Part shown: piece by piece, positions 8,950 to 44,633 of the stretch
Layout of the letters: each line of letters starts with the position of its first letter
Position numbering within the stretch: position 1 is the first letter of the stretch
Origin: a virus
DNA length: 64,000 nt
Strand: one strand, 5' to 3'
IMG/VR virus record: IMGVR_UViG_3300042560_001229
Span: 1 to 64,000 of that record
The notes under the pieces: model-generated
What the model was told of the DNA's origin: nothing
Databases searched by the model: none
What the model saw: only the letters and a program-made list of their open reading frames with translations
Program-made: the position numbers and the translations under genes

Positions 8950-8960
8950 ACCACGAAACT

Positions 8961-9320: not shown

Positions 9321-9323
9321 TTT

Positions 9324-9545
9324 ATGAGCACCGAAGCAAAAGCAACCGACCAGCCACACCCGGCCCCGCCCCTTGACCCGAACGTGCTGGCGAAAGCCCA
9401 CGCCGATGCCATCACCGCGCTGTGTGGTGCCCTGCCCTCCCTGCTCAACTTTAAGGTAGGCTACGGCAACGACGCGGCTGCGAAGTCGGCGTTCGAGCGT
9501 ATCGAAAATAGCCACCAATACCTGATGAACCTGACCTTCCGATGA
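9324..9545 (+). CDS. Hypothetical small protein
   Basis: Encodes 73 residues and starts three bases after the preceding stop in a TTTATG context. It has a low-complexity Ala/Pro N-terminus followed by a helical region (NVLAKAHADAITALCGAL). ATGA overlap with the coiled-coil gene downstream. Not recognised. Confidence 0.5.
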   Translation: MSTEAKATDQPHPAPPLDPNVLAKAHADAITALCGALPSLLNFKVGYGNDAAAKSAFERIENSHQYLMNLTFR

Positions 9546-10321: not shown

Positions 10322-10554
10322 CCACTGAGGATGTGCAGGAGATGCTGGACGGCAACGAACTCGTCTCGTGGATGGAGCCGGATGACGGCACCGATGAACC
10401 GATCATTTGGTTCGCGCACGCGAAAGACCTTGTGCTTTGCCAGAAGGAAGTAGCGAAGGCGGTAACGAGGAACCCTGCTTGGGAGTATGACTCGGACAAG
10501 GATGCGCTGGAGGATTTCATCGTCATCCACTGGTGCGAAAGGACATGGCCATGA
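10318..10554 (+). CDS. Hypothetical acidic protein
   Basis: Encodes 78 residues from the ATG overlapping the previous stop, with GAAAGGAGAAGC as ribosome-binding site. It is acidic overall, with two Cys. Not recognised. Confidence 0.5.
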   Translation: MTTEDVQEMLDGNELVSWMEPDDGTDEPIIWFAHAKDLVLCQKEVAKAVTRNPAWEYDSDKDALEDFIVIHWCERTWP

Positions 10555-10818
10555 GCATCCGCGTAGTCCACTGCAAGAGGGAGCCGCATGACATCTACAT
10601 CGGCAGGCCGAGTCCGTGGGGAAAACCCCTTTGAAATCGGCAGGGACGGAACGCGGGAGGAAGTCATTGCCAAGTATCGCACTTGGCTTGGTGAGCAACC
10701 GCACCTGATGAAGCTGCTCCCTACCCTGAGAGGCAAAGTGCTCGGATGCTGGTGCGCCCCGAAAGCCTGTCATGGTGACGTGCTCAAGGAACTGGCCGAG
10801 AGAGGGGAGAAGCCATGA
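10551..10818 (+). CDS. DUF4326 protein split by an apparent +1 frameshift
   Basis: Frame one (10551-10634) encodes MSIRVVHCKREPHDIYIGRP and SPWG, then stops at CTT-TGA. The +1 frame (from about 10630 to 10818) continues PFEIGRDGTREEVIAKYRTW through LRGKVLGCWCAPKACHGDVL. Together they rebuild a full DUF4326 domain, whose core IGRPSxWGNPF spans the break. The tract GGGGAAAACCCCTTTGA has one base too many for a continuous frame. Options are a recent mutation, a sequence error, or programmed +1 shifting at CCC-CTT-TGA. Confidence 0.65.
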
Positions 10819-11276
10819 AAGGATGGACAGCACCGCCAGTGGAAAGAGGGATACCGATTCCGGCTCCATCGAAACCAAGGAAGGGACGACCGCCCAACAC
10901 CCATCCACCATCGCCGTGGATTGCATGGCTGAAAACTTTGGCGGTGGGAGATTCGTTCCCCGTCTATTTCAGCACAGGGAATACGGTGAAGAAGTATCTG
11001 GAGAATCTCGGCATTGCTTACGAGTATCGGTGGGTAGGCGATGGGCAGGGTGGTAGGTTCTGGATTCTCAGCCAGCCTTGGCGCTGTGCGGAACGACCGG
11101 ATGGATTGCACCAGTGGGAACCGAAACCCTTGGAAGGGCTGAACCATTTTCGCTGCTCCGCATGTGGAGTCCCCGGAGTGCTGGACATCCCTGCAAAGCG
11201 CATCGTGCCCACCCTACCCTCCGAGGAACCCGCTCCACTTACCGAGAGGCCCGCCTCGACAGATTCAGCCGCGTAA
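10815..11276 (+). CDS. Hypothetical proline-rich protein
   Basis: Encodes 153 residues. It has a basic, proline-rich N-terminus (PAPSKPRKGRPPNTHPP), a middle with VGDSFPVYFSTGNTVKKYLE and CRCSACG-like cysteines (FRCSACGVPG), and a disordered tail. GAGAAGCC precedes its ATG, which overlaps the DUF4326 stop. Not recognised. Confidence 0.5.
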   Translation: MKGWTAPPVERGIPIPAPSKPRKGRPPNTHPPSPWIAWLKTLAVGDSFPVYFSTGNTVKKYLENLGIAYEYRWVGDGQGGRFWILSQPWRCAERPDGLHQWEPKPLEGLNHFRCSACGVPGVLDIPAKRIVPTLPSEEPAPLTERPASTDSAA

Positions 11277-11284
11277 AAAAGAAC

Positions 11285-11617
11285 ATGAGCAACAAGACGA
11301 ACAGACGCATAGGGAAGTTTCGCATCAACCGCGAAGTCATGGACAACTGGCGGCAGGCAAACGGACTGCTGACCAACGTGTTCGTGCTCCGCTGTGAGTT
11401 CATGGAGGCTGACCGCTGCTTCCACTATGTCGCGCTGTGCGATGAGTTCGAGGAAGTCCAGTTGGGCGAGGAGCCACCTGAGTATGAAGTCATCGTGACC
11501 ACTCACGGAGATGGCAGTCAGACTGACTTTAGGTTTCGGCTGAACGAATTTGCCACAGTTTCAAAACGACTTCGGGCGCTGGACTTCTCGAAAACAGAAG
11601 CTAGGTCTGCTCCATAA
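11285..11617 (+). CDS. Hypothetical protein
   Basis: Encodes 110 residues. It begins MSNKTNRRIGKFRINREVMD and has a central FEEVQLGEEPPEYEVIV segment. A degenerate palindrome (GCCACAGTTTC, centre about 11557) falls in its 3' half. It lies in the same operon as the upstream genes; the gap to the next cassette is short. Confidence 0.55.
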   Translation: MSNKTNRRIGKFRINREVMDNWRQANGLLTNVFVLRCEFMEADRCFHYVALCDEFEEVQLGEEPPEYEVIVTTHGDGSQTDFRFRLNEFATVSKRLRALDFSKTEARSAP

Positions 11618-11642
11618 GGAAGAAAATCCATCGGTGGAAAAC

Positions 11643-11700
11643 TTTGCAACTGTTGCAAATATCGCTTGTCCATGAAGCCGCTCAGAAAGAAGTTTGCGGC
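11643..11700 (+). promoter_or_regulatory. Palindrome plus leaderless-type promoter P6
   Basis: TTTGCAAC-T-GTTGCAAA is centred at 11651. A weaker -35 TTGTCC is at 11666 with ATGAAGCCG, and the -10 GAAGTT is at 11689-11694. The predicted start is 11701, the A of the ATG. Confidence 0.65.
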
Positions 11701-12033
11701 ATGAAAACGATGAAACTAATTCTGCTCGCAACCATGATGCTCACCGGCACGTTGTTTGCGGAACCCGACACGAGTGCAGCAGCCGACTGCCGGAAAATGC
11801 TGGCCGACCTGAATCAAGCGTCCCGCTCCCTAGCCAGTCCTGCGGAGAAGGCGACGATCATTCAGCAAATGCACAAGTCGGCCAAGCTCGCCTCCTACAA
11901 GGTTCCGTCTGCCAATCATTCCGCTCGCAAGATGCTGTGGGACGTTACCCTTGAATGCGGAAATGGTATGCGCTGGAATCCGGCAAAGGTGAAGTCCATG
12001 CTGGAAAGTGCCGTGCTGGAGTTGGAGAAGTGA
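11701..12033 (+). CDS. Secreted (signal-peptide) hypothetical protein
   Basis: Encodes 110 residues. The N-terminus MKTMKLILLATMMLTGTLFA has the basic, hydrophobic and small-residue regions of a Sec signal peptide, with cleavage likely after LFA. The mature part (about 90 residues) is helical with two cysteines that could form a disulfide. A periplasmic role, such as superinfection exclusion, is possible but only inferred. It has its own promoter, P6. Confidence 0.6.
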   Translation: MKTMKLILLATMMLTGTLFAEPDTSAAADCRKMLADLNQASRSLASPAEKATIIQQMHKSAKLASYKVPSANHSARKMLWDVTLECGNGMRWNPAKVKSMLESAVLELEK

Positions 12034-12042
12034 AATGAGGAC

Positions 12043-12081
12043 TTGCACAACGAATCGGGGCTGTGCATAGTCGGCACCGAT
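12043..12081 (+). promoter_or_regulatory. Leaderless-type promoter P7 (divergent copy)
   Basis: TTGCAC at 12043 is followed by AACGAATCGG; the -10 CATAGT is at 12066-12071. The predicted start is about 12078 and the ATG is at 12082. No palindrome lies nearby. It would drive the glycosyl island. Confidence 0.55.
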
Positions 12082-12834
12082 ATGACCAAATCACGCACGC
12101 GCAGTAAGGGCGGCAAGCCAGCCCTCAGCACCGAAGCACCGAAACTCCCCAAGACGATTGCGGAGATTACGATTGAGAGAAAGCAACTCACGGAGTTGCG
12201 GCCTCACCCCAAGAATCCGCGCACCCACCCCGAGCGGGGAACGGCGGAGTATGAGACGTTGAAGGCGTCTTTGGAGTATGACTACTTCGACCCGATGGTT
12301 TGGAATAAGCGCAACGGGATGCTCGTCTCCGGTCACTTCCGCCGACGCATCCTGCTCGACATGAGCTACACCGCTGCGGATGTCGTGGTGGTGGACTACG
12401 ACGAGAACACTCATTTGGCGAGGATGCTGGCGGCGAACAAGGGGTTGGGAAAGGTGAACAAGGCGCAGCAGAAAACCCTGTTTCAAGATTTGCTGGATGC
12501 GAGTGCGAAGATGGAGTTGTCGGGGTTCACGGACAAGGAGTGGGGCAAGTTCATTGATGCGGCTGGGGAATCGCTGGAGGGGCCGCAACCTGACTACCCC
12601 ATTGCTCCCATCCTCGGTGAGAAGCACGACTACGTGATCGTCTATACGGCGAACGAGACTGATCGAGCCTTCCTCCATTCCCTGCTAGGCATTCGCCAAG
12701 AGCGCAGCTACAAGAGCACCAGCATTGGTTTAGGGCGGGTGGTTACTTTTGAGCGGTTTGTTGCGGAGTTGGTAAAGAACAAGGAATCCTTGAACGCGCA
12801 GAGTCTTGTCTCCGGTAACTACCAGCCTGAGTAG
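12082..12834 (+). CDS. ParB-like nuclease-domain protein
   Basis: Encodes 250 residues. The N-terminal 120 residues match a ParB/Srx-type domain: LTELRPHPKNPRTHPE, then YDYFDPMVWNKRNGMLVSGH, then RRRILLDM. The C-terminal half (HDYVIVYTANETDRAFLHSL, then SYKSTSIGLGRVV) occurs in phage ParB-like proteins without a clear HTH. Here it heads an operon with two glycosyltransferases and two UDP-galactopyranose mutases. It might act in DNA modification, or bind the dispersed palindromes like ParB on parS. Both are inference. Confidence 0.75.
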   Translation: MTKSRTRSKGGKPALSTEAPKLPKTIAEITIERKQLTELRPHPKNPRTHPERGTAEYETLKASLEYDYFDPMVWNKRNGMLVSGHFRRRILLDMSYTAADVVVVDYDENTHLARMLAANKGLGKVNKAQQKTLFQDLLDASAKMELSGFTDKEWGKFIDAAGESLEGPQPDYPIAPILGEKHDYVIVYTANETDRAFLHSLLGIRQERSYKSTSIGLGRVVTFERFVAELVKNKESLNAQSLVSGNYQPE

Positions 12835-12835
12835 C

Positions 12836-13579
12836 ATGAGAGTTCAAGTTGTTATACCTTCGTTTAGGCGAGCGAAGCTGTGTTTGTCTCATCGTCTGTT
12901 TTCCGATGCGTTAGTGTGCATACCTGATGATGAGGACTACGCGGAATATCTGGCTAGCGGTTTCACGAAAAAGCAGTTGCTTGTCCATTCGTCCAAGATG
13001 ATTGGGATAGCCCCGAAGCGGAACTGGATTCTGCAACAGTTTCAAAATGAGCCTGTGTTCATGGTTGACGACGACATGGAATCTTTTCATCGGGTTTATG
13101 GCAAACTCGGACAGACATCCAAGATAAAGGAAGTTGGGGCCGCGCAGGAGGTAATTAACAACCTAGCTCAGATGACTCATGATATGGGTGCCTTCATGTT
13201 CGGGCTTGGATGCTTTCCAGACCCCAAGCTGTTTGGCGTGGACAAGCCGTTTGCCATTACAGGGTTTATCCCCGGTGCAGCTATGGGTCTGCTTCCCGGT
13301 CACGGACTTAGTTTTGATACGCAGTTCCTACTACGGGACGACTTTGATATTTGCTGCATGAATGCCTTTAGGCACCGCATCTGTCTAAAGGAGAACCGCT
13401 TCACGTTCAGCACGGTTGAGATGTATAAGCGAGCCGGTGGTCAGGCGACTTACCGAACAGGCACCGTTGACGGTTCGTGCATTGAACGTCTTATCCTCAA
13501 GTATGGGAGTGATGTGATTATGCGGTCTGGCGTGATGGAAGGGCCGGTGGAGAAAATAAAGATGGTGCTCCCCTATTGA
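12836..13579 (+). CDS. Glycosyltransferase, TAGT-like, copy 1
   Basis: Encodes 247 residues. VQVVIPSFRRAKL at the N-terminus, KRNWILQQF at about 61 and VFMVDDDMESFHR with a DDD motif at about 75-80 fit a GT-A glycosyltransferase. The pattern resembles the phage TET-associated glycosyltransferase (TAGT) family, which decorates modified DNA bases, though this rests on memory of motifs. It is a paralog of the next gene. It contains a palindrome-like site (13030-13046). The ATG at 12836 is two bases after the ParB-like stop. Confidence 0.65.
   Translation: MRVQVVIPSFRRAKLCLSHRLFSDALVCIPDDEDYAEYLASGFTKKQLLVHSSKMIGIAPKRNWILQQFQNEPVFMVDDDMESFHRVYGKLGQTSKIKEVGAAQEVINNLAQMTHDMGAFMFGLGCFPDPKLFGVDKPFAITGFIPGAAMGLLPGHGLSFDTQFLLRDDFDICCMNAFRHRICLKENRFTFSTVEMYKRAGGQATYRTGTVDGSCIERLILKYGSDVIMRSGVMEGPVEKIKMVLPY
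13030..13046 (+). repeat. Intragenic palindrome variant
   Basis: CTGCAACAGTTTCAAAA is centred at 13038. It is the reverse orientation of the GAAAC-T-GTTGC variant and is read in frame as LQQFQ. Confidence 0.5.
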
Positions 13580-13580
13580 T

Positions 13581-14345
13581 ATGCCCGAAGTCCGCGTCAT
13601 CATTCCATCGTTCCGTCGCAGTCAGTTGATTTACTCTCATAGGGTCTTGGAGGATTACATCGTGTGCATCCCTGAGTCCGATTATGCCGACTACGTGGCC
13701 GTGGGGATTCCGAAGAAACGAATTGTCTGTCACCCGAACACAGTGATCGGGTTGTGCCCGAAGCGGAATTGGATTTTCGACAACCTCGAAAACGGCAAAC
13801 CGTTCCTATCGCTGGACGATGACATCCACGGCATGATGCGGACGTTCACGCCAGCCGGTGTGACGACGCTGTTGGACAGCAAGGTGGCCGTCCATGAAAT
13901 CATTGATAACACGGTGAGCATGGCAGAGGAGATTGGGGCGAAGTTCTTTGGCTTTGCGAACAGTGCCGACATTCGCACGATCAATTTCAATGTGCCGTTC
14001 GCCCTTACCGGATTCGTCAACGGATGGAGTATGGGATTCCTGCCGGGGCATGGTCTGCGCCTGCCGGAGAACCTGATTGGCAAGGAGGATTACGAACTGT
14101 CGTTGCAGAACGCTTTTCGACACCGCATCTGCTTCCGCAACAATCGCTATGGGTTCAATGCCGAGGGGACGTTCAAGAACACCGGAGGGTTGGCCGTCTA
14201 TCGAAATAACGAGACGGAGAAGAAGGCCGTGGCCATTCTCCAGCAACGCTATGGGTCGGACGTAGTGCTTGTGGTCAGGCGCACAGGGTTCAAGACACAG
14301 GAGCATGTAGGGTATCAGAAAATTGCCCTCAACCTTCCATTCTGA
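13581..14345 (+). CDS. Glycosyltransferase, TAGT-like, copy 2
   Basis: Encodes 254 residues, paralogous to the preceding gene along its length: VRVIIPSFRRSQLIYSHRVL, CPKRNWIFDNL, PFLSLDDDIHGMMR, ALTGFVNGWSMGFLPGHGL and NAFRHRICF all have counterparts. The conserved DDD suggests metal-dependent sugar transfer from a nucleotide sugar. The likely donor is UDP-galactofuranose made by the adjacent mutases. The acceptor (DNA base, virion protein or host glycan) is not visible. Confidence 0.65.
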   Translation: MPEVRVIIPSFRRSQLIYSHRVLEDYIVCIPESDYADYVAVGIPKKRIVCHPNTVIGLCPKRNWIFDNLENGKPFLSLDDDIHGMMRTFTPAGVTTLLDSKVAVHEIIDNTVSMAEEIGAKFFGFANSADIRTINFNVPFALTGFVNGWSMGFLPGHGLRLPENLIGKEDYELSLQNAFRHRICFRNNRYGFNAEGTFKNTGGLAVYRNNETEKKAVAILQQRYGSDVVLVVRRTGFKTQEHVGYQKIALNLPF

Positions 14346-15355
14346 TGAAGGTGCTGGTTGTAGGCAGTGGAATTAGCGGACTGGTCGCGGCCCGTTTGAT
14401 GCGAGATGCTGGGCATGATGTGGTCGTGCTGGAGACTCGTGAACATATCGGCGGGAACTGCTACGACTACAAGGATGCGCCTACTGGAGTGACGGTTCAC
14501 AAGTATGGCCCGCATTGTCTGCACACCAATTCGGATACGGTGGCTTTGTTCCTCCAACGCTTCGGGAAGTTCAACGATTTCAGTCCAGAAGTGTGGGGAC
14601 GCATAGGGGATGGGCGATTGGTGCCCGTTCCGTTCAACCTGCACGGTGCGGATTTGGTGGGGCCAAAGACACCCGAGGAGATTAGGGACATGATCTTCGT
14701 GGACTACTCTGAGAAGATGTGGGGCAGGCCGTGGGAGCAGATACCGGAGAACATCCGCAAGCGGTTGCCGGTTATGAGGGAAAGCCATGAACTGCGCTTC
14801 CACCAAACCAAGTATGTCGGAGTGCCGGTGGACGGATGGACGAGTCTGCTAAGTGCTATGGCCGAGGGGGTGACTGTCCATCTGAATACTATCTTGGGGG
14901 AATGGATTTCGTGGAGCAGGAATTGGGCAGACCTGACCATTTACACGGGAAAGCTGGATGCGTTTTACGGTTATCGGCACGGCAGGCTCCCTTATCGGAG
15001 TTTGGACATCAAGATTGAGCGCACCACGCGCCAGCGGCATTTCCAGATTAACGAATGCAACAGTTTCAATAAATGGACGCGGGCGTGTGACCAAGGATGG
15101 TGGTATGGGAAGCATGAGGATGCCACCATTGTCACGCGGGAGTATTCAGTTGACCACACACCGGAGAATGAGCCGTATTACCCGATGAGGCCGTTTAGCG
15201 GTGCAACGGAGATGTGGGAGAAGTATGATGCGCTGGCGAAGCATGAGTCGCGGACAGTATTCCTTGGGAGGCTGGCGAACTACACCTACATAGACATGGG
15301 TGTGGCTGTTGGAACGGTGTTGGGAAAAGTTGGGAAAATTACTGGAGTAGCATGA
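14345..15355 (+). CDS. glf: UDP-galactopyranose mutase, copy 1
   Basis: Encodes 336 residues, slightly shorter than typical bacterial Glf (about 370-390). It has an FAD-binding GSGISG motif (KVLVVGSGISGLVAARLM), HIGGNCYDYKD, then TVHKYGPHCLHT, all diagnostic of the family. VDYSEKMWGRPW and YPMRPFSG are also conserved family segments. The enzyme interconverts UDP-galactopyranose and UDP-galactofuranose in the cytoplasm. It is tightly coupled to the glycosyltransferase upstream and to its own paralog downstream. Confidence 0.9.
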   Translation: MKVLVVGSGISGLVAARLMRDAGHDVVVLETREHIGGNCYDYKDAPTGVTVHKYGPHCLHTNSDTVALFLQRFGKFNDFSPEVWGRIGDGRLVPVPFNLHGADLVGPKTPEEIRDMIFVDYSEKMWGRPWEQIPENIRKRLPVMRESHELRFHQTKYVGVPVDGWTSLLSAMAEGVTVHLNTILGEWISWSRNWADLTIYTGKLDAFYGYRHGRLPYRSLDIKIERTTRQRHFQINECNSFNKWTRACDQGWWYGKHEDATIVTREYSVDHTPENEPYYPMRPFSGATEMWEKYDALAKHESRTVFLGRLANYTYIDMGVAVGTVLGKVGKITGVA

Positions 15356-16380
15356 AGGTGCTGGTTGTGGGTGCCGGGATAAGTGGGGCGACAGTGGCGG
15401 CAAGGTTGCGGCAGTCGCGGCACGCCGTAACGGTCGTGGACTCGCGCTCGGTGGTAGGAGGGAACTGCCATGATTATCGGGATGACGTAACCGGAGTAAT
15501 GGTGCATAAGTATGGGCCGCATGTGTTTCACACCAAGCAGGTTGCGGTGTGGAATTTTCTCCAAGACTACACGGAGTTTGATCGTCTGGACTTGAAGATC
15601 GTGGCTGAGTTGCAGGACAGGAGGGTAGTGCCTATTCCTTACAATGACACCACGCGGAGGATTGTCGGTGACTGGACGGAGGAGGACATCCTGCGGGAGA
15701 TTGTGGTGCCGTATTCGGAGAAGATGTGGGGGTGTCCGTTTGCCGAGATTCCGAAATCCATCACCAACCGCGTGCCCAAGCCAAGGGTCGGTAATGACGA
15801 CAGATGGCATCAGGACACGTTGCAGGGTGTGCCGAGGCATGGCTACACGCAAATGGTGGAGAGTATGTTGGAGGGGTGTGATGTGCTGGTGGGCGTTGAC
15901 GGGGACTACTGGAGACGCATCCGCGACGACTTCGATCTGGTGGTCTATACCGGCAAGCTGGATGACTACTTCCAGAGCATCCACGGTGCGCTGCCCTATC
16001 GTTCGCTGAACATTGTCTCGGAGGTGAAGACATGGCGTCTCCCTACCATGCAGATGAATGCCTGCAACACTCGCAACCCGTTCACCCGGCAGATAGATCA
16101 CGGCCACTGGTATCCGTATCGCAGCAGTGTCTCGAAGTGGACGACGATCATTTCGACGGAGACGCCCTGCGCTCATGTGCCGGGTGAAAATGAAGCGTTC
16201 TACCCAATGGCGGCGTTTGCTGGGGTGGAGGAGTTGGCCGGAAAGTATCGGGCAATGGCCGAGGCTGAATCACGCACGCTGTTTGTGGGAAGGCTTGCAA
16301 CTTACACGTATCTGGATATGGATGTTGCGGTCGGCATCGCCCTCAAGACTGCTGAGAGACTGCTGAACCTACCTATATGA
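15352..16380 (+). CDS. glf: UDP-galactopyranose mutase, copy 2
   Basis: Encodes 342 residues with GAGISG, VVGGNCHDYRDDVTGVMVHK, YGPHVFHT, VPYSEKMWGCPF and YPMAAFAG, all hallmarks of UDP-galactopyranose mutase. It clearly diverges from copy 1, so the pair is not a recent duplication. Its ATG overlaps the previous stop and its own stop overlaps the small terminase ATG. The sugar genes are therefore co-transcribed into the packaging genes. Confidence 0.9.
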   Translation: MKVLVVGAGISGATVAARLRQSRHAVTVVDSRSVVGGNCHDYRDDVTGVMVHKYGPHVFHTKQVAVWNFLQDYTEFDRLDLKIVAELQDRRVVPIPYNDTTRRIVGDWTEEDILREIVVPYSEKMWGCPFAEIPKSITNRVPKPRVGNDDRWHQDTLQGVPRHGYTQMVESMLEGCDVLVGVDGDYWRRIRDDFDLVVYTGKLDDYFQSIHGALPYRSLNIVSEVKTWRLPTMQMNACNTRNPFTRQIDHGHWYPYRSSVSKWTTIISTETPCAHVPGENEAFYPMAAFAGVEELAGKYRAMAEAESRTLFVGRLATYTYLDMDVAVGIALKTAERLLNLPI

Positions 16381-27429: not shown

Positions 27430-28734
27430 ATGGCAAACCTACTCCGCAGACGCACCAAGGAATTTTCCAGCAAGAGGGAGGCTGCGGAGGCGTCACGCAT
27501 CCAAGATCGCAAGGAGCACAGCTACATTGAGCAGCGGTTGAAGATTCCGATTTCGCGGCTGGGAGACATAAATTCGTTCCTGAGTGTGGGCAGCAAGAAG
27601 GTGTGGGCATCGTTCCGCGCCTGCCATCTGGTTGCCTCCCTAATCATGTCCACGGAGTTCAAGCTGGTGAAGCCCGATCAGCCGGAGTGGAAACCCAAAC
27701 CCGGCGACCCGCAGGACGACTTCCTCAGCAACCCGAACCCCTTCGATTCGTGGAAGGAGATGCTTTACCTGTGGACGTTCCACATGAAGCTGACCGGGCG
27801 GGCGTATTGGATGAAGGATGAGATTAACGGCATGGGTCAGCCGAGCGCGGTCTATCCGATGCTGCCGCAATACATGAAGATCGTGCCTGACGCGAAGAAG
27901 GGCATCGGCATGTTCATTTACAGCGTGAACGGCAAGGAGATTTCACTGACCCCCGAGGAAGTGATTTACTTCCGCCGACCGTCCGCGATCAGCCTGATTG
28001 AAGGCATGGGTGACGTGGAGCCGAGTCAGGACTTGTATAACGACTTCATCAATCGCAGCACGTATTCGGAGAAGTTCATCGAACACGGCGCACAGCCTTC
28101 CGGCATCCTGACCCTCAAGGAACCGATGGATGACGAGGAGCAGTGGGGCAAACTCAAGGACTGGTGGAACCGGGAATACAGCGGCAAGCAGAACGCAGGC
28201 AAGACCGCCTTCCTATCCGGCGAGTGGAGCTATCAGCAGCTTGGACTTACCCATCAGGAGATGCAGGCGGTGGAGCGGGATACGATGACCGTGAATCAGA
28301 TATTTATGAACCACGGTGTTCCGCTCTCCATTGCGGGCATCCAAGGTGCGGCGAACTACGCCACGGCGCGGGTGGATGAGATGAACTTCCGCAAGTATGA
28401 AATCGTGCCGTTGCTGGAGTTGTTCATCGGCAAGCTGAACCGTTCCGGTGCGCTGTTCACGAACTTCGAGGAAAGCACGCAGATTGCCTACAACCTCTCG
28501 GGGCTGATTGACGTTGAGCAGGTGACGAGGGACTACGGCCCGCTCGTGAGCATGGGAGCCATGACCCTCAACGAGTATCGGGAGAAGGCCGGACTGCCGA
28601 AGATTGACAATCCGTATCTCGATCAGTTTTTCATCCCGTCCAGCTTCACGCCGCTGGAGATGGCCGGACTGACGGATGTGCCGCCAGCCGAAGCCACGGT
28701 GAAGCGTTTGGTCAGGGAAGCAATGGGGAGGTAG
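27430..28734 (+). CDS. Portal protein (HK97 family)
   Basis: Encodes 434 residues. SVGSKKVWASFRACHLVASL, LLSNPNPFDSWKEML-type text, HMKLTGRAYW, LTPEEVIYFRRPSA, DNFINRSTYSEKFIEHGAQP-type text and QGAANYATARVDEMNF are characteristic of HK97-type portals. It forms the dodecameric DNA entry ring at one capsid vertex. Followed after three bases by the MuF-type gene. Confidence 0.9.
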   Translation: MANLLRRRTKEFSSKREAAEASRIQDRKEHSYIEQRLKIPISRLGDINSFLSVGSKKVWASFRACHLVASLIMSTEFKLVKPDQPEWKPKPGDPQDDFLSNPNPFDSWKEMLYLWTFHMKLTGRAYWMKDEINGMGQPSAVYPMLPQYMKIVPDAKKGIGMFIYSVNGKEISLTPEEVIYFRRPSAISLIEGMGDVEPSQDLYNDFINRSTYSEKFIEHGAQPSGILTLKEPMDDEEQWGKLKDWWNREYSGKQNAGKTAFLSGEWSYQQLGLTHQEMQAVERDTMTVNQIFMNHGVPLSIAGIQGAANYATARVDEMNFRKYEIVPLLELFIGKLNRSGALFTNFEESTQIAYNLSGLIDVEQVTRDYGPLVSMGAMTLNEYREKAGLPKIDNPYLDQFFIPSSFTPLEMAGLTDVPPAEATVKRLVREAMGR

Positions 28735-28737: not shown

Positions 28738-31700
28738 GTGCCCTGCTCCCACCCGCACCATCGTCTGTCATCCAGCAGGGTGTTCTCCCTACTGAGGAAG
28801 TCCCATGCTCCCGAGGGGGGCTGGAACGCTGCGAACTACCACGGAGTCCACGCGGAGCGGCTGGTGCAGGATTTCATCAAAGTCCACAAGACCGCACAGG
28901 CGAGAGGCATCCGCTCGCTGACGGAGTATCTCAAGGCGAAGTTCAAGGAGTTGGTGAACATCGTCATTCAGGAAGTCACGGAGCGGAAGATTCGGCTCGG
29001 TCAGACGAAGGGTCTTGCAACTGTTGCAAAAGCACTGGAGTTCACGGTGAATCCTGCCGGTGACAGCAATCTGTGGATGGAGGCCATTGCCGGTGCGATG
29101 CGGGACTACGATAAGGAAGTGATCGTGGAGATGCTGCCTCGGATGCAGAGCGTAGCCTCCGAAGTGTTTGGCAAGACCACGGTGCTGCTCGGCGGTGAGG
29201 TAGGGAAGGACGCTGCGAACATTGTCCATGCTGAGATGAAAGACTTGGCCAAGCTGGTCACGCGCATCAATGAAACGACGCGCAACCAGATGGCGACGAT
29301 CATCCGAGAAGGCATCGAAGCCGGTGACTCTGTGAGCGGGGTGGCACAACGGCTGCGGGATGCCCTTCCGCAAAAGCTGTGGCCGCGCATTCCCACCATT
29401 GCCCGCACGGAGATGGGCAGGGCTGCGGACAAGGGCAGTGCGCTGGCCATGATGAAGTCCGGTGTGGTGAAGACGGTCATGGTCATCGGCTGCAAGGCCA
29501 TTGAGCCGGGGATTCCCACTTATCATGGGGTGCCGACTTGCAACATCGAACACGTCCCGGTTGAGGACGCCGCGCTGCTGCAATTCCACATCAATCACAC
29601 CGGGACGATTGTGCCGGAGTCGTTCTTCGATGATGACCGCGCACCCGCCTCCCTACCACCTTTGGATTCACCGGCAGATGAGTTGAAGCTGGCGCGTGGT
29701 GCGGAGGGCAGTTTGTCTTCAAGGCCGATTGAATTTGCCGGTGCGGAGGAGGCTGAGTTTCTGGCCAAGGAGTTGGCCGAGGATAACATCCTCATTCAGC
29801 CCACCGCGTTGAAGGCCATGCAAAGTGGCTTCGGCATGTCGCCGGTCGCGCTGAGAAATGCCTTGATGGAGGATGCGGTGCCCAAGGATGGCTACCTTCC
29901 GGCGAAGATGATTATGACCCAGCAGGAGAAGGGTCTGTGGAGCATCCTGTCCAAGATTTGCCCGGTGAAACCCGGCAAGGCCGAAGGCGATGATGGATGC
30001 AACACTTTGGCGATGGTCTATGACCTAAATGAGAAAGCGGTCGGGCAGGGCATCCACACCATGCACGAAACGATAAAGGCCAAGGCTGTTGGCAAGCAGG
30101 CGTTAGCCAACCATTTGGCCACGATGGATTCGCTCGGCATCAAGAAGATGAGTCTGGAGGCAAACATTGACAAAGGCGGGTTTGCATGGGCGCGTTACGG
30201 ATTCGTGCCCACCGACCCGAACGGGCTGGCTGGGCAGTTGCTCAAGAAATACACGAGCGCGGTATTCGACTCCCTGCCTAAAGCCGATGCTAGTCATGTG
30301 TTGGGTCTTATCTCCCGGCTGACGATGGGTGATGCCAAGGCGGTGTGGGAGATCGCCGCTTTGAAAATGACCGGCCCCGGTGGGATGGGAATTGGCGATT
30401 GGTTGTTGCGCGGAACCAAGTGGCAGGCGCAACTCGATCTGACGGACAAGGTGGCCTACAAAATGTTCAAGAAGTATGTGACTGACAAGGGAGTGGCCTC
30501 TGCTGGTGTTGCGCTGCCGCCGAAGATTCTTCCTGCAATGGTGCCCAAGCCGCTGAGTGCCCCGGTAGTCTCTGCGGCACCCATCAGCATGTCCGGGGTG
30601 CAGTTCCCGACCATTGCGGAATTGAAGGATACAGGCACGCGCATCGGCGGAACTACTGGTGCCCGACTCATGGTGGACTCCAAGGGCAAGCGGTGGGTGC
30701 TCAAGGATGGCCGTGGGGCTGTTGGAACCATCACGGAGGAAGTTCACGCTGACAATGCTTACCGGGCGATGGGCGTGAATGTGCCGAACAGTATCCTGAT
30801 GACCGAGGGTGGAGTGACGGTCAAAATCTCCGAGTTCATGGAGGGAGGGGTGACGCTGAACGACTACGCGCTCTCGGCCAGCAAGGGAGACATCGCGGCG
30901 ATGTATGCCAAGATCAGGAAGGGCTTTGCCGCTGATGCGCTGCTGGGAAATTGGGACGTGATTGGCATGGACGCTGATAACATCCTCATTGTGAAAGGCG
31001 TCCCCTATCGGATTGATAACGGTGGGTCGCTGCGCTACCGGGCGCAGGGTTCCCTCAAGGGAGCCGCGTGGAATGAGCATCCGGTGGAGTTGTGGACGAT
31101 GCGTGGCGAACGCTTCTCATCTGGTGCCGCTGCACAGGCCAAGAAGGTGTTCGGTGAAATCGGGGACAAGGCGGAACTGACCATTTATGATCTGGCACGG
31201 CAGATTGATGCCATTGATCGCAAGGCGTTGCTGGAGTCGCTGCCCGAGGAGTTGCGGGACACGGTGGGCAAGCGTCTGACCTCCCTAAAGTCCATCGCAA
31301 GAAAGGCCAAGGATTACGAAAAGGATGACTGGAATCATGGCAATACTGACCGTGTGACCTTTGGCATAATGGAGTTGCGAGAGGCAGGTATATCGAAGAA
31401 GCTGGAGAAAACACTGGATTTTGCTAAGAGCAGGGGTGTTAGACGCGCTAGCTGGGAGATGACGGATGACGCAGGCAAGTCGTTTGGTGGTCTGCGGGAC
31501 AAAGGTGGTGCCGGTCAGGAGTTTTGGGATTTGCTGAGAAAGAAGCATGGGCCGGAGGGCGTGGATGTCTTGCGTGCGTGGCACAATGCACAGGCTGGTG
31601 GTTCGTGGAGTCCTGAGTCCGTTGGCTTGAAACATTGGCTCACTAATCAGAGGCACGCCATCGCCGGGAAAGTTGAACGCTATTGGGGTCGTGGGAATAT

Positions 31701-32235
31701 AACCACGGAGATGGCCGAGAACCGATGGAAGGATATGTGCAAGGTCGCCGGTATCAGCACGGACGAGGCTGGCAAGGTGTTCTCCTTCTATCATGCCTTT
31801 GTGCAAGAGCAGCTTGGGGTCATTGATCTGCCAAACAACGACCGGGCGCGTAGGGTGGTGAGGCTGCTACGGACTGAGGAAGCCAGCACGTTATCGGCTG
31901 CAAAAATATCCGTTGGGGACAAGAACCGGCCTCTGCGCCGTGGTAAGAATGAGTCTTCCTCGCTGGTGCATCCCACCACACCCGCTGGCAATGAACTGAC
32001 CGTTCAAGTTGTTCCGCATACCCGAGTGACTGGTTCGTATCTCGGAGGAAATCAAAGCGGTGGCAGTTCTTTTCTTGGTGATGAGGAAAATGAGTTCACC
32101 TTCATCCCTGACAAGATTCCGGTTAGTTATTTAGGGACGGTGCGTTATGATGATACCAAGTGGGACGGTGATTTTGGCCGGGAAGCTACGGATTGGGGAC
32201 TCAGCCTCGACCATCTGGCCCATCTTAACGATTGA
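28738..32235 (+). CDS. Multidomain minor head protein (MuF-type) with kinase-like domain
   Basis: Encodes 1165 residues from a GTG with GGGGAGG upstream. Residues ~150-300 carry the MuF/SPP1 gp7 pattern (VAQRLRDALPQK, TIARTEMGRAADKGSA). Residues ~420-500 look like a GNAT-type fold (ANIDKGGFAWARYGFVP). Residues ~620-790 resemble a HipA/lipid-kinase-like kinase: RWVLKD, then LLGNWDVIGMDADN, then YRIDNGGSLRYRAQG. The last ~140 residues (LRRGKNESSS ... GDEENEFTFIP) faintly recall an ADP-ribosyltransferase. It is likely packaged and injected to act on the host. Confidence 0.75.
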   Translation: MPCSHPHHRLSSSRVFSLLRKSHAPEGGWNAANYHGVHAERLVQDFIKVHKTAQARGIRSLTEYLKAKFKELVNIVIQEVTERKIRLGQTKGLATVAKALEFTVNPAGDSNLWMEAIAGAMRDYDKEVIVEMLPRMQSVASEVFGKTTVLLGGEVGKDAANIVHAEMKDLAKLVTRINETTRNQMATIIREGIEAGDSVSGVAQRLRDALPQKLWPRIPTIARTEMGRAADKGSALAMMKSGVVKTVMVIGCKAIEPGIPTYHGVPTCNIEHVPVEDAALLQFHINHTGTIVPESFFDDDRAPASLPPLDSPADELKLARGAEGSLSSRPIEFAGAEEAEFLAKELAEDNILIQPTALKAMQSGFGMSPVALRNALMEDAVPKDGYLPAKMIMTQQEKGLWSILSKICPVKPGKAEGDDGCNTLAMVYDLNEKAVGQGIHTMHETIKAKAVGKQALANHLATMDSLGIKKMSLEANIDKGGFAWARYGFVPTDPNGLAGQLLKKYTSAVFDSLPKADASHVLGLISRLTMGDAKAVWEIAALKMTGPGGMGIGDWLLRGTKWQAQLDLTDKVAYKMFKKYVTDKGVASAGVALPPKILPAMVPKPLSAPVVSAAPISMSGVQFPTIAELKDTGTRIGGTTGARLMVDSKGKRWVLKDGRGAVGTITEEVHADNAYRAMGVNVPNSILMTEGGVTVKISEFMEGGVTLNDYALSASKGDIAAMYAKIRKGFAADALLGNWDVIGMDADNILIVKGVPYRIDNGGSLRYRAQGSLKGAAWNEHPVELWTMRGERFSSGAAAQAKKVFGEIGDKAELTIYDLARQIDAIDRKALLESLPEELRDTVGKRLTSLKSIARKAKDYEKDDWNHGNTDRVTFGIMELREAGISKKLEKTLDFAKSRGVRRASWEMTDDAGKSFGGLRDKGGAGQEFWDLLRKKHGPEGVDVLRAWHNAQAGGSWSPESVGLKHWLTNQRHAIAGKVERYWGRGNITTEMAENRWKDMCKVAGISTDEAGKVFSFYHAFVQEQLGVIDLPNNDRARRVVRLLRTEEASTLSAAKISVGDKNRPLRRGKNESSSLVHPTTPAGNELTVQVVPHTRVTGSYLGGNQSGGSSFLGDEENEFTFIPDKIPVSYLGTVRYDDTKWDGDFGREATDWGLSLDHLAHLND
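29014..29030 (+). repeat. Intragenic palindrome site
   Basis: CTTGCAAC-T-GTTGCAAA is centred at 29022, in frame as LATVAK within the minor head gene. Confidence 0.55.
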
Positions 32236-33342: not shown

Positions 33343-33699
33343 ATGGCCAACGAAATTACGGTATCACTGCAATTCAACGTATCGAAGAACGGAGCCTCGG
33401 TAACGGCGTCACCTTCCATCACGCAAACCATGTCTGGAAATCAGATGATTTCCAACGTGCAGGCGGTTGGCACATCCAACGAAGCCCTGTTGCTTGGCGA
33501 CGTTGTGCCTACTGGCTGGATGTTCGTCAAGAATCTGGACAGCACGAATTTTGTGGAAGTGTTCCTCGACAATGCCAATGCCGAGCTTGCGGCCAAGCTG
33601 CTGCCCGGTGAGTTCTGCCTGCTCAAGCCCGGTGCGGCCATCTACGCTCGTGCCGACACTGCCGGTTGTGATTGTCAGGTCATCGCCATTGAGTTGTAA
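33343..33699 (+). CDS. Small virion-type protein (decoration/head-fibre candidate)
   Basis: Encodes 118 residues. MANEITVSLQFNVSKNGASV, GWMFVKNLDSTNFVEVFL and LLPGEFCLLKPGAAIYARAD form a compact beta-rich protein common near phage head genes. It is paralogous to 21544. A dedicated promoter with an A/C-rich leader suggests abundance. Confidence 0.6.
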   Translation: MANEITVSLQFNVSKNGASVTASPSITQTMSGNQMISNVQAVGTSNEALLLGDVVPTGWMFVKNLDSTNFVEVFLDNANAELAAKLLPGEFCLLKPGAAIYARADTAGCDCQVIAIEL

Positions 33700-33704: not shown

Positions 33705-33721
33705 TCTGCAACTGTTGCAAA
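33705..33721 (+). repeat. Palindrome site at a gene junction
   Basis: TCTGCAAC-T-GTTGCAAA is centred at 33713, between the stop of the decoration-like gene and the next ATG (17 bp away). Confidence 0.6.
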
Positions 33722-33729
33722 AATCCACC

Positions 33730-34026
33730 ATGAACTTCGTTCAATGCAGATTCGTCGGTAAGCCCTCATGTGTGGGCAGGCATGGGATGCTGGAGTTCGG
33801 TGACGTGGTGACGCTCAGTGCGAAGGAGTTCCTGTCTGCCAAGCGCGGCCCGAGCGCGGACGATTGGGAGAGGCTGCGGGATGTTGACAAGCCACAGGCT
33901 CCCATTCGCGCTTCCGAGGCGGTGAAGGTCGTGGAGACGCAGCCCGACCCCGAAGTGCTGCACGAGAAGGCACCGGAGGTTGAGCTTCCGACCAAGGTGG
34001 AGACGCGCAGGAAGCACCGGAAGTAA
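33730..34026 (+). CDS. Hypothetical protein
   Basis: Encodes 98 residues. MNFVQCRFVGKPSCVGRHGM, then EFGDVVTLSAKEFLSA, resembles small head-associated phage proteins with a single beta fold. The C-terminus is basic and likely disordered (KVETRRKHRK). It sits between decoration and topoisomerase genes. Confidence 0.5.
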   Translation: MNFVQCRFVGKPSCVGRHGMLEFGDVVTLSAKEFLSAKRGPSADDWERLRDVDKPQAPIRASEAVKVVETQPDPEVLHEKAPEVELPTKVETRRKHRK

Positions 34027-34032: not shown

Positions 34033-35496
34033 ATGCGACGGCTGATCGTCCGCAAAGCCCATCCCGGTGACGGGGCCAGCAGTGCCTACTACCAGACCGA
34101 TGGGCCGATTCCCCGGATAGTGGTCGTTAAGGCGAACCCGAATCACGACCCTGCTACTGGCCGGTTCACGTCGGCTGGTGGAGGAGGCGGTGGTGGTGGT
34201 TCAGCGAATGAGCGGACTCGTGATCGTATTGAAGGGACACAGGCCGAAGCTGATCGTGAAGTAGCCAAGGCCGGTGCCGTGGTTAAACGGATTCGTGGCA
34301 AGCTGGATGCAGTGAAGGCACGGCGAGACGCGCTGGACACTCCACCCTCTATCGTCAGTCAGCTTACGGCGGCGTTGAGCAGCGCCACTGCCAAGCGCAA
34401 GGCACTGGAAGCTGAGGGTGAGAAGATCAATGCGCGACTCGCCGCACTCAAGGCCCAGCTTGCCGCCTTGAAGAAATCCCTTGGTGATGATTTTGACCAG
34501 TTGCTTACGGATGCGATGGCATGGCGTATGGGGTGCGAGTCACTGGAGAGCTACTTGTCCGAACTGCTGACTACGAAGGCTCCAAGGCTGGTCGTTTTCA
34601 AAGCAGGGAACCCGAATCACGACCCGGTTACTGGCCGTTTTACGTCTGCCGGTGGTGGCGGGTATCTCCACGCCACGACTCGCGGTGCGGACGGCAAGCT
34701 GACGATGAGCGACGGCTCTCCCCTACCTTCCCACATCGCTGCATTGAAGATTCCGCCGAAGTGGGCTGATGTCGAAGTGAACAAAGACCCGGCTGGTGGG
34801 TTGCTGGCACAGGGCAAGGATGCCAAGGGCAGGGTGCAGAGTGTTTATGGTGAGAGCTTCATTGCGAAGAAGGCGGCGCAGAAGTTCGCCCGCAACACCG
34901 AACTGATGGCCAAGGAATCCAAGGTCGTTTCGCAGATTAACGACAATCTCAAGAGCAGTGATGCCAAGACGAGGGAGAATGCTGCCGCGATGAAGGTCAT
35001 TCACTCCACCGGCATCCGACCCGGCAGTGACAATGACACCGGGGCCAAGGTGCAGGCCTACGGAGCCACGACGCTGGAGGGCAGGCATGTCGTGGTCAAC
35101 GGGGAGAAGGTCAGATTGAAGTTCACCGGCAAGAAAGGCGTGGCCTTGGACATCCCGGTGGATGACCCGGTTGCCGCCAAGATTCTGCGGGAGCGCAAGG
35201 AGGCAGCGGGCAAGAAGGGAAAGATTTTCCAAACCAACGATGGCTCCCTACGCGAGTATAGTCACACGCTCGGCGGTGGCAGTTTCAAGCCCAAGGATTT
35301 CCGCACGCTCAAGGGCACGAACGAGGCACTGGCGATGGTTGGCAAGATGAAGGCACCCAAAGGAGAGAGTGCCTACAAGAAAGCGGTCAAGGCGGTGGCC
35401 ACTCACGTAGCCAATAAGCTGGGCAACACAGCGACCGTGGCGTTGCAGAGCTACATCAATCCCGTTGTGTTTTCGCATTGGAGGGAAGCAAAATGA
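34033..35496 (+). CDS. Type IB DNA topoisomerase with virion-tag repeats
   Basis: Encodes 487 residues. Residues ~228-487 match poxvirus/bacterial TopIB: HIAALKIPPKWADV, LLAQGKDAKGRVQSVY, HSTGIRPGSDND (catalytic Arg region), KLKFTGKKG-like Lys loop, KDFRTLKGT (Arg) and Tyr474 in LQSYINPV. The N-terminal part carries two copies of NPNHDPxTGRFTSAGGG (~35-51 and ~194-210) separated by a coiled coil. That motif recurs in phage head-associated proteins. A packaged topoisomerase acting on incoming DNA is plausible. Confidence 0.8.
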   Translation: MRRLIVRKAHPGDGASSAYYQTDGPIPRIVVVKANPNHDPATGRFTSAGGGGGGGGSANERTRDRIEGTQAEADREVAKAGAVVKRIRGKLDAVKARRDALDTPPSIVSQLTAALSSATAKRKALEAEGEKINARLAALKAQLAALKKSLGDDFDQLLTDAMAWRMGCESLESYLSELLTTKAPRLVVFKAGNPNHDPVTGRFTSAGGGGYLHATTRGADGKLTMSDGSPLPSHIAALKIPPKWADVEVNKDPAGGLLAQGKDAKGRVQSVYGESFIAKKAAQKFARNTELMAKESKVVSQINDNLKSSDAKTRENAAAMKVIHSTGIRPGSDNDTGAKVQAYGATTLEGRHVVVNGEKVRLKFTGKKGVALDIPVDDPVAAKILRERKEAAGKKGKIFQTNDGSLREYSHTLGGGSFKPKDFRTLKGTNEALAMVGKMKAPKGESAYKKAVKAVATHVANKLGNTATVALQSYINPVVFSHWREAK

Positions 35497-35712: not shown

Positions 35713-36711
35713 ATGCCAAAACTACTCAAGCGCAACGCCAACAGACCGACGCATCTCCCTACTCCGGTTCTGGAGCCGCACGCACACTACAAGAACGTGT
35801 GTCCTGTGTGTCTCGTGACCAGCCAGTGCCGCTGCACATCCTCGTATAAGCGTATGAGCACCCACGTCTGCGCGACGTGCGTGAAGGAGATTGGCAGTCG
35901 TCCGGTGGACTTGTCCCTCCTGCCTCAGCCGCAGAAATCCGCCCACGCCCTCATGGGTAAGATGGTGACGTTTGAAGTGGATGGTGTTCGCATCGTGGGC
36001 CGCGTGGAGAAGCAAGTCAGTGCCGACAACTTTTCGATGAAGCTGGCCATGCCCGATGTGGATGGGATGCTGATTCTCACGGACAGCGAAATCGTCCATC
36101 CCGTCTCCGGTCTGGAGGAGGTAAGTGCCGTGGCCAACGCCAAGAAGATGCGCGTGTTCGAGGACACCGTGCCGTTTGAAATCGAACGCGGGAAGATGCA
36201 GACCATTCGTGATTCGGACAAGGCGATCATGGATTATCAGGACGTGGTGATTGCCGGGTTCGCCTCCACGTTCAAGTCGGTGACGCCCGCTGATCGTGAC
36301 GGGGACTACGTTCTGGAGAAGGCGTTCGACAAAACACTCATGGAGTTCCGCAAGAACCCGGTGATGCTCATTGACCATCAGAATCGGGTGGACTCGCTGG
36401 TGGGTTCCTACTCGAAGATTGGCACGTCCGAGAGTGGCCTCGCGGTAGAGGGCCGGTTGAGCAACGCACCGGAGGTTCGCCGCGTGCGCTTCCTCGTAGC
36501 CGAGGGCCACTTGAAGGCGTTCAGCATCGGCGGCTTCTTCCTCTACGAGTCAGACGGCAAGGGCATCGGTGAAGTGAAGCTCTACGAGATTTCGCTCATC
36601 CCGATTCCGGCCAACCCCGATTCCCTTTTCCACACGCGCTCGCTTGGCATGGGTGATGTCGTGAAGTGCTGGAACAACCACCGCAAGCATCTGCGGGCTT
36701 GGATTCGCTAA
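35713..36711 (+). CDS. Prohead (capsid maturation) protease with N-terminal zinc-finger-like region
   Basis: Encodes 332 residues. Residues ~175-310 fit the HK97 U35 protease: VIAGFASTFKSVTPADRDGD, NPVMLIDHQNRVDSLVG (His), HLKAFSIGGFF (Ser) and KLYEISLIPIPANP. It should cleave the scaffold/delta domain of the capsid protein during maturation. The first ~170 residues are unusual: CPVCLVTSQCRCTSS with CATCVKEIG suggests zinc binding, followed by a small beta domain. The extra N-terminus may guide assembly. Confidence 0.85.
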   Translation: MPKLLKRNANRPTHLPTPVLEPHAHYKNVCPVCLVTSQCRCTSSYKRMSTHVCATCVKEIGSRPVDLSLLPQPQKSAHALMGKMVTFEVDGVRIVGRVEKQVSADNFSMKLAMPDVDGMLILTDSEIVHPVSGLEEVSAVANAKKMRVFEDTVPFEIERGKMQTIRDSDKAIMDYQDVVIAGFASTFKSVTPADRDGDYVLEKAFDKTLMEFRKNPVMLIDHQNRVDSLVGSYSKIGTSESGLAVEGRLSNAPEVRRVRFLVAEGHLKAFSIGGFFLYESDGKGIGEVKLYEISLIPIPANPDSLFHTRSLGMGDVVKCWNNHRKHLRAWIR

Positions 36712-42196: not shown

Positions 42197-42354
42197 TTTG
42201 CAACTGTTGCAAAGTTTTTGTTGACTCGCTGTTCGCGCTCTGCTGATTTGCAGCGCAACGAAGAAAATCGAAAAAGCCTTGAGAGGGGAGTATCGAAGCC
42301 GCTTCGCAAAAGTCCAACTCAGCAAGTCAACTCAGTAAAAACCAAACTCATAAA
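42197..42354 (+). promoter_or_regulatory. Palindrome and late promoter region for the major capsid gene
   Basis: A palindrome (TTTGCAAC-T-GTTGCAAA) is centred at 42205. TTGACT at 42221 is followed in register by TCGCGCT, as at 46550. A long leader of about 100 bases follows, ending in the A/C-rich AACTCAGTAAAAACCAAACT before the ATG at 42355. No Shine-Dalgarno sequence. This matches the need for strong late expression. Confidence 0.55.
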
Positions 42355-44040
42355 ATGAAACTTACCCGCGATCAGAAAATTCGGCTCAAGGCACTTCTCT
42401 CCAAGGATGCGAAGTCCCTGACCGCCGACGAAACGACCGAACTCAACACCCTCACTGCGGCTGCAAAGGCTGCGAATTGGGACGCCGCCACCGACCCCAT
42501 CGAAGATGAGGACGAGAAGGGGCTGACCGATGACGAAGTGAAGGGCATCGTGGTGGACGCGCTCAAGGGCATCGGCCTCGACGCTGAAACTGTCACCGCC
42601 ATCAAGGACGGCCTCAAAGCCTCCGGCAAGTCGCTCACTGCCGAGGACGTGTCCACTGCCATCCAGAAGCATCTCGGCGGCAACGCCGTTGACCAGAAGG
42701 CTCTGACCGACGCCGTGACCAAGGCGGTCAGCGCGCAGAAGGGTCTGACCGAAGCCGATCTGACCAAGGCTCTGGAGAACTTCTCCAAGAACCTCAAATC
42801 GCCCTCGCGTCACGAGTTCCCGGTCAACTCCGGCGAAGCCTCCTTCCCCATCGAGTCCCGCGCTGGCAACCTGACCGTTGGCCAGAAGCAGCTTCTCAAT
42901 ATCTGCATGATGCACGTTGGCGAGTCGGCCATTCTTTCCGGCAAGTCGGTTCGTCCGAAGTCCGAGAATGATGGCATCACCGCCGAGCAGTTGGCGCAGG
43001 CTTGCCGCAACGGTGAGTTCGTCAGCAAGACCATCCGCGCTGAGATGCTCAATGGTCGCAAGGCCATCACTGCTGGTGGTTCCGGCTCCGGTGCCGAACT
43101 GGTGAACACCGATCTGTCGAGCGATCTGCAAACCCGCCTCTATTTGGAGTCGGCGGTTGCAGCGGAGTTCGTCGGTCAGGAAATCCAGATGCCGACCAAT
43201 CCGTTCCAGCTTCCGATGACCACGACTCGTCCGTTCTTCCGTATCGGTGACGAGACTGGCTCGGTGCCCACGGCATCCACTCCGGCGACGACTCGCCCGA
43301 CCCTCACGGCTGGCAAGCTGATCGGCATGTCCGAATACAGCTACGAGGCTGAGGAGGACGCGATCATCGCCATCCTGCCCATGCTGCAAGAGCAGTTGGG
43401 TTCGGCTGCGGCTGACGCCCTCGAAGGTGCCCTTATCAATGGTGACACCGGCACCCACATGGACGGCGACATCGAAGCTGTCTCCGGTCATTCGTCCAAG
43501 CTGTTCAAGGGCTTCCGCAGCCTCGCCTTGGACGCTGGTGGCATCTGCACTGTGGACATCTCCGCTGGTGGTATCAGCACCGACAACATCGGTTCCATGC
43601 GTAAGAACATGGGCAAGTATGGCATCAAGCCGCGTGACCTTATCCTCATTGCCGGGCCGAAGGGCTACAACGATCTGGTGCAACTCGCGGAGACACTGAC
43701 GTTCCAGAATGTCGGCACCGGCTCGCTGGCTCGCATCCTGACTGGTGACGCGCCTTCGCTGTTCGGTATGCGTATCATCACTTCGGCGCAGTGCCGCGAG
43801 GATTTGAATGCTGCCGGTGTTGATGAAGTCGCTGGCGTTGCTGACCGGGGCAGCATCCTCATCGTCCACAAACCGAGCTTCCTGCTCGGCGTGCGCCGGG
43901 GCTTCACCGTCGAAGTGGACACTGACAAGCGGACGCAGATGAACTCTGTCATCGCCAGCTTCCGCCGCGCCTTCACTCCGAAGGAGACTCCTTCGACCAC
44001 TGAGCCGATGGTGATTCTCGGATTCAAGCATGTGGCCTAA
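42355..44040 (+). CDS. Major capsid protein (HK97 fold)
   Basis: Encodes 561 residues. The first ~150 are acidic and helical, like an HK97 delta/scaffold domain removed by the protease at 35713. A HK97-type core follows: SGSGAELVNTDLSSDLQTRL, QIPMPTNPFQLPM-like text, FRIGDETGSVPTAS, LEGALINGDT, RKNMGKYGIKPRDLILIAGP and LFGMRIITS. It forms the capsid shell. It has its own late promoter and is followed by a strong terminator. Confidence 0.9.
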   Translation: MKLTRDQKIRLKALLSKDAKSLTADETTELNTLTAAAKAANWDAATDPIEDEDEKGLTDDEVKGIVVDALKGIGLDAETVTAIKDGLKASGKSLTAEDVSTAIQKHLGGNAVDQKALTDAVTKAVSAQKGLTEADLTKALENFSKNLKSPSRHEFPVNSGEASFPIESRAGNLTVGQKQLLNICMMHVGESAILSGKSVRPKSENDGITAEQLAQACRNGEFVSKTIRAEMLNGRKAITAGGSGSGAELVNTDLSSDLQTRLYLESAVAAEFVGQEIQMPTNPFQLPMTTTRPFFRIGDETGSVPTASTPATTRPTLTAGKLIGMSEYSYEAEEDAIIAILPMLQEQLGSAAADALEGALINGDTGTHMDGDIEAVSGHSSKLFKGFRSLALDAGGICTVDISAGGISTDNIGSMRKNMGKYGIKPRDLILIAGPKGYNDLVQLAETLTFQNVGTGSLARILTGDAPSLFGMRIITSAQCREDLNAAGVDEVAGVADRGSILIVHKPSFLLGVRRGFTVEVDTDKRTQMNSVIASFRRAFTPKETPSTTEPMVILGFKHVA

Positions 44041-44616: not shown

Positions 44617-44633
44617 TTTGCAACTGTTGCAAA
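44617..44633 (+). repeat. Palindrome site at a gene junction
   Basis: ATTTGCAAC-T-GTTGCAAA is centred at 44625, immediately after the TAA stop and 10 bp before the next ATG. No promoter is seen. Confidence 0.65.

Follow-up and report, generated by a model that had tools for sequence, protein, structure and literature searches.

A tagged type IB topoisomerase in a phage head operon: a candidate virion-packaged swivelase

Introduction

What would a type IB topoisomerase (TopIB) be doing among the genes that build a phage head? The question is raised by an open reading frame (ORF) in a 64,000-nucleotide stretch of viral DNA (IMG/VR record IMGVR_UViG_3300042560_001229, positions 1 to 64,000; hereafter the window), the complete virus record having 81,219 bases. 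An earlier note, made from the letters alone, had described the product as a type IB enzyme with two copies of a peptide motif, and had suggested that it is packaged in the head and that the motif is a cargo-loading signal. In our best reading, which we consider moderately probable, the protein is a virion-packaged swivelase, loaded by peptide-tag sorting and delivered with the genome.

The way in which tailed phages select the proteins that enter the capsid is, to our knowledge, known in detail for few systems. In T4, a capsid-targeting sequence, a short peptide on internal head proteins, directs cargo into the procapsid. Head-packaged ART, NUDIX and 2H enzymes fused to the portal, MuF or capsid protease are also known (Iyer et al., 2017, PMC5512222; 2022, PMC9503650).

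The window enzyme and its two tags

The gene and its parts are as follows.

34033..35496, + strand: tagged type IB topoisomerase gene, 487 amino acids (aa), open from ATG to stop
34135..34185, + strand: tag copy 1, NPNHDPATGRFTSAGGG, aa 35-51, near the N-terminus, disordered in the model
34201..34572, + strand: helical (coiled-coil-like) domain between the two tags, aa ~57-180, from the AlphaFold model
34609..34659, + strand: tag copy 2, NPNHDPVTGRFTSAGGG, aa 193-209, immediately before the TopIB domain
34663..35493, + strand: TopIB domain, active site R329, K367, R424, N465 and Y474, running to the end of the protein

From N- to C-terminus, the 487-aa protein consists of a disordered start, tag 1, the helical domain, tag 2 and the TopIB domain. 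Pfam Topoisom_I matched aa 276-469 (4.8e-19; 69.1 bits against a curated cut-off of 23.7), with a weak match of Top1B_N_bact at aa 235-263. The closest solved structure in a PDB sequence search was the Deinococcus TopIB (2f4q/3m4a, 8.7e-25), and Foldseek with the AlphaFold model returned the TopIB fold (3m4a, E 1.2e-14, probability 1.00). R329, K367, R424, N465 and Y474 align with R137, K174, R239, N280 and Y289 of D. radiodurans, which we take to be the catalytic residues, and are invariant in 51 of 51 aligned sequences; the earlier assignment of Tyr474 as the catalytic tyrosine proved correct. Because the five residues both align with the Deinococcus enzyme and are identical across the 51 sequences, the window TopIB is very probably active; its predicted activity is the relaxation of supercoiled DNA through a 3'-phosphotyrosyl link.

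The fold, the five catalytic positions and a remnant of the N-terminal domain are common to the window enzyme, the D. radiodurans TopIB (2f4q/3m4a) and the variola TopIB (2h7f). Unlike the bacterial and poxviral enzymes, the window enzyme has N-terminal tags, a helical domain and a gene in a head operon, and its relatives are portal-fused. The fetched TopIB loci, with 1,310 ORFs in all, contained no relatives of the helical N-terminal domain. The window protein has a single enzyme domain beside the helical one, while relatives such as those of loci L047 and L066 have ART and TopIB together.

Both tags fit NPNHDPxTGRFTSAGGG, as the earlier note had reported. The DNA core of the tag occurs twice, against 0.02 occurrences expected from shuffles. 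Between the two copies there are two amino-acid differences and seven synonymous codon differences (P 0.003, taking a 72% nonsynonymous share among neutral codon changes), a pattern that suggests the tag peptide is under selection. A profile of the tag family (H..G[RKQ][FW]-GGG) matched the window protein twice (1.7e-8 and 4.6e-8), matches that are not independent, since both window copies are among the 34 sequences of the profile.

Relatives of the enzyme are repeatedly fused to head proteins

A single-protein search for TopIB relatives found none and a two-row alignment found two, while a four-row alignment profile yielded 137 related TopIB loci in viral contigs, of which the best 80 were fetched. 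Topoisom_I was present in all 67 of 67 non-redundant relatives. By Pfam, 19 of the 67 were fused to a portal (16 to Phage_portal_3 and one each to Portal_Mu, Phage_portal and Phage_portal_2), three to DUF2213 and two to MuF, with ART or NUDIX fusions occurring as well; PHROG gave 19 portals and five head maturation proteases. The relatives at L032 and L033, which share 57-60% identity with the window enzyme and adjoin it on the tree, are fused to two different portal families. Portal fusion required nine changes on the tree, at least four of them forced by well-supported branches, which indicates that TopIB joined head proteins repeatedly. In a model of the portal-TopIB protein of L044, the tag lies within a disordered stretch (residues 488-555) that separates two folded domains.

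Cultured phages yielded no tagged TopIB. In bacterial genomes there was one close relative, on a contig of a metagenome-assembled genome that looks phage-like, the scan patterns being narrow. A side observation concerns L036, where a MuF-TopIB polyprotein (5855-10837) has an intein-like splicing domain (Pfam Intein_splicing 9.7e-5, below its cut-off).

Tags on portals, proteases and enzymes of other phages

A recognisable tag stood no more than 150 aa upstream of the TopIB domain in 53 of 68 non-redundant proteins; the commonest form was [FW]xESxHPRxxxGKFxxGGG, the window form being NPNHDPxTGRF. Viral contigs were also scanned for PNHDPxTGxF irrespective of TopIB. The matches included portals (L009, L010/L017, L012, L016 and L018), an S78 protease (L003), a zeta-toxin polyprotein (L022), an acetyltransferase (L019) and a 1,202-aa TopIB polyprotein (L006). 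A match at L002, in a frame of only 26 codons, was taken as chance, and an INPHARED match of tag 2 in "head morphogenesis" genes of a Salmonella jerseyvirus (antisense strand, E 4) was rejected.

A scan for EHPRxxxGKF, with known TopIB loci removed, gave 65 tagged proteins, which were compared with 63 control ORFs from the same loci. Among the tagged proteins were 17 Phage_portal_3, 12 ART, eight NUDIX, three to four TopIB and three zeta proteins, together with Acb1, RelA/SpoT, PBECR1, LPD1, LPD3 and DNA ligase; there was no terminase among the families listed (25 of 35). The controls comprised four portals, two ART, eight MuF and about five terminases. Portals (17/65 against 4/63, P 0.0035) and ART (12 against 2, P 0.009) were enriched, a comparison weakened by the controls being on average shorter than the tagged proteins. 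The earlier note had suggested looking for the motif in head proteins of other phages, and across related, mostly uncultured phages tags did turn up on portals and proteases. DUF2213 and S78_2 head proteases were both among the carriers of a single tag type. The HPR-type core had 86 matches against none in shuffled proteins. Tags stood at the C-termini of portals and proteases, at the N-termini of cargo and between unrelated domains, and some polyproteins had several each.

Within a genome the tags are alike, with synonymous codon drift. Tag identity was 56% between different genes of one locus and 40% between loci (permutation maximum 48%), and 95% of tagged gene pairs in one locus had the same tag type, against 38% when permuted (0 of 2000 permutations as high). 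Types can mix, two or three being found in L030 and L074. GVKGMKWG, GHPFRGNQYT, KHLPGQHDQ and CPTGPGGGVDNSCSP are further types, each in several genes of one genome; together with GRPGxVGG we noticed at least five such short types, most repeated across the genes of one genome, in L036 (genes at 2027-15312), L033, L059/L060, L099, Gordon (L235) and Secretariat (L236). Among cultured phages, gp8-gp11 of Arthrobacter phage Gordon each begin with a GVKGMKWG tag, of which Gordonia phage Secretariat carries five copies, gp12, gp14, gp15 and gp17 being among its tagged products. The protease of Mycobacterium phage Damien begins with NPRQPRDRFGRW, and in Pseudomonas phage Orimi01 a tag stands within a portal-tag-ART fusion. 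A GHPFRGNQYT query against cultured phages gave no match.

The head operon and the rest of the genome

The TopIB gene is surrounded by the following head genes.

27430..28734, + strand: portal protein, untagged (PF04860 2.8e-50)
28738..32235, + strand: MuF-like head morphogenesis protein with a large C-terminal extension, untagged (phrog_2468 4e-10)
35713..36711, + strand: prohead serine protease (S78), the next gene downstream of TopIB (PF04586 2.9e-14, PHROG)
42355..44040, + strand: major capsid protein (PF05065 3.7e-11, PHROG)

Five small genes separate TopIB from the portal and MuF-like genes upstream, the S78 prohead protease gene follows it, and the capsid gene lies further downstream; this place among portal, protease and capsid genes is that expected of head-packaged effectors. 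The earlier note had placed the gene between decoration and protease genes. The head operon and the downstream protease bear this out, but the genes directly upstream (33343-33699 and 33715-34026), its "decoration" genes, had no Pfam or PHROG family match. Replication genes (DnaB-like, PolA-like, primase-like and RecA-like, by eye) lie at 64-81 kb of the record, and no type II or IA topoisomerase was detected in the window phage.

Several other features were noticed in passing. The long C-terminal region of the MuF-like protein (28738-32235) resembles a kinase-like (HipA/PI3K-type) domain by eye, and parts of it have matches among the proteins that other phages encode at their TopIB loci. At 12806-14345 and 14345-16380 there are two tandem paralogue pairs, the second resembling UDP-galactopyranose mutase flavoproteins by eye. 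A 17-bp palindrome, TTTGCAAC(A/T)GTTGCAAA (or TTTGAAACTGTTGCAAA), has 27 sites dispersed in the window from 282 to 63350 (for example 2062-2078, 5508-5524, 8560-8576, 33705-33721, 42197-42213 and 44617-44633), against 0.09 matches in shuffles; many seem by eye to be near gene boundaries, and it could be an operator, a stoperator-like element or a transcription signal.

A proposed packaged swivelase and its alternatives

Read from the sequence, the support for a packaged swivelase lies in the intact active site, the fold, the two constrained tags, the head-operon position, the recurrent fusions to head proteins and the tags common to predicted injected effectors. The lack of a detectable type II or IA topoisomerase in the window phage also counts for it, as does the position of the replication genes at 64-81 kb. 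An active TopIB would be built or loaded into the procapsid and exit with the genome, its disordered tag peptide being recognised by a phage-specific procapsid partner (scaffold, capsid or portal). The window phage would load TopIB as a separate tagged protein, where many relatives instead fuse it to the portal, the prohead protease or MuF. Packaging in the virion, which the earlier note had advanced, is likely in our judgment, given the well-supported though indirect evidence of these fusions. The enzyme travelling with the DNA would relax torsional stress in the genome while it is packaged, as it is ejected or once it has newly entered the cell. Type IB topoisomerases require neither ATP nor Mg2+, and relaxation during packaging, ejection or after entry would fit an ATP-free enzyme that travels with the DNA; it may act at any of these steps. 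That the substrate is the phage's own DNA is probable, if less so than packaging itself; joining of genome ends, which the earlier note had also raised, is not specifically favored.

Some observations weigh against this reading. TopIB is the sole tagged protein of the 81-kb record, no other head protein there having the tag, so that no tagged head partner is visible in its own genome; the earlier statement that the motif is seen in head-associated proteins cannot therefore derive from the window genome, although it holds across phages. By regular expressions, 15 of the 68 TopIB relatives have no tag, though several have degenerate forms. The clustering of tags around TopIB, with 42 of 46 genome-wide matches no more than 10 kb away where 15 were expected, speaks for the reading, but the count includes many tags inside the TopIB genes themselves. 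Action on host DNA is also conceivable, and the packaged enzyme may be an injected effector aimed at the host's DNA or defences and not at the phage genome. The tag and the slot are indeed common to ART, zeta, Acb1, RelA/SpoT and PBECR1 proteins, but in active site and fold TopIB matches an ordinary relaxing enzyme and no TopIB-specific toxic or defence-linked partner was seen, and we consider this unlikely. Far less probable still is an ordinary replication or transcription topoisomerase co-transcribed with late genes by chance. In cultured Rhizobium phage RHph_N46, TopIB has no annotated head gene within 6 kb; in the window phage, however, the gene is in the head operon, relatives are covalently fused to portals and head proteases, and tags cluster in that region.

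The tag itself may be a peptide for docking, a target for the protease or a linker. We infer that a phage-specific partner reads it as a signal for head association, and the cargo-loading role proposed earlier fits the presence of one tag type per genome on unrelated domains, with a protease site or a specialised linker as the other possibilities. The tag stretches are disordered in models of the window protein and of L044, which is equally expected for all three. If the tag were a prohead protease site, polyproteins (portal-tag-TopIB, tag-coil-tag-TopIB) would enter the procapsid and be cut at the tags, freeing the domains in the head in the manner of T4 and SPN3US internal proteins. The placement of several tags per polyprotein between unrelated domains, and of others at the C-terminal ends of portals and proteases or the N-terminal ends of cargo, in regions disordered in models, would suit this; genome-specific tag types would suit a genome-specific protease, and the window protease gene directly follows TopIB. 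It is nevertheless mildly disfavored because no tag-like sequence was found in the window's own capsid protein and because one tag type spans different protease families (DUF2213 and S78_2); the Gly-rich tail after GRF is also more like a flexible linker than a cleavage consensus. We regard cleavage as rather unlikely, though somewhat less so than an attack on the host.

That Gly-rich tail, the disorder in models and the repeated domain shuffling around the tags would be at home in a mere specialised flexible linker or recombination joint that aids shuffling and has no partner, with TopIB in the head only via fusions in some phages. Against a plain linker, the core is conserved across unrelated proteins (the 86 HPR-type matches), the peptide is kept despite synonymous drift (the two against seven codons of the window, under the assumed 72%), tag types are genome-specific, and tags also stand near protein N-termini, where a linker is unneeded; we find this account quite improbable.

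Comparison with described systems and significance

The polyvalent, head-packaged effectors are likewise enzymes whose genes accompany, or are fused to, those of the portal, MuF or protease, and their packaging and injection are predicted (PMC5512222, PMC9503650). In those two papers "topoisomerase" occurs only in a reference title, and no description of a conserved tag was found. MuF polymorphic toxins (PMC5576092) likewise join a head-associated carrier to a variable C-terminal enzyme; unlike them, the window TopIB lacks a MuF domain, and the words "topoisomerase", "linker" and "motif" are absent from that paper. A literature search that left out most subscription journals and preprints found no published description of the tags or of a tagged TopIB, so that the tags may have been described in papers it did not cover; it found no paper with both "topoisomerase IB" and "portal protein" and none with NPNHDP-type strings, and the seven matches of other tag strings were unrelated.

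We liken the phage tags by analogy to the T4 capsid-targeting sequence; unlike it, they are also internal and C-terminal and of several unrelated types. More broadly, and tentatively, at a little under an even chance, tailed phages may use a modular peptide code for head loading, with one or a few tag types per lineage (HPRxxxGKF, NPNHDPxTGRF, xPRDxxGRW, GVKGMKWG, GHPFRGNQYT, KHLPGQHDQ, CPTGxGGGVDxxC) on portals, proteases and interchangeable enzymes, and portal- or tag-borne TopIB may be a virion swivelase on viral DNA.

If this is true, a short, portable, lineage-specific tag on portals, proteases and predicted injected enzymes would offer a signal from which injected proteins could be predicted in uncultured phages, and perhaps a means of loading heads with proteins. 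Repeated fusion of TopIB to the portal would offer a way to test whether packaging, ejection or genome establishment is limited by torsional stress. Poxvirus virions are known to contain a related TopIB, and a phage counterpart would be a striking parallel.
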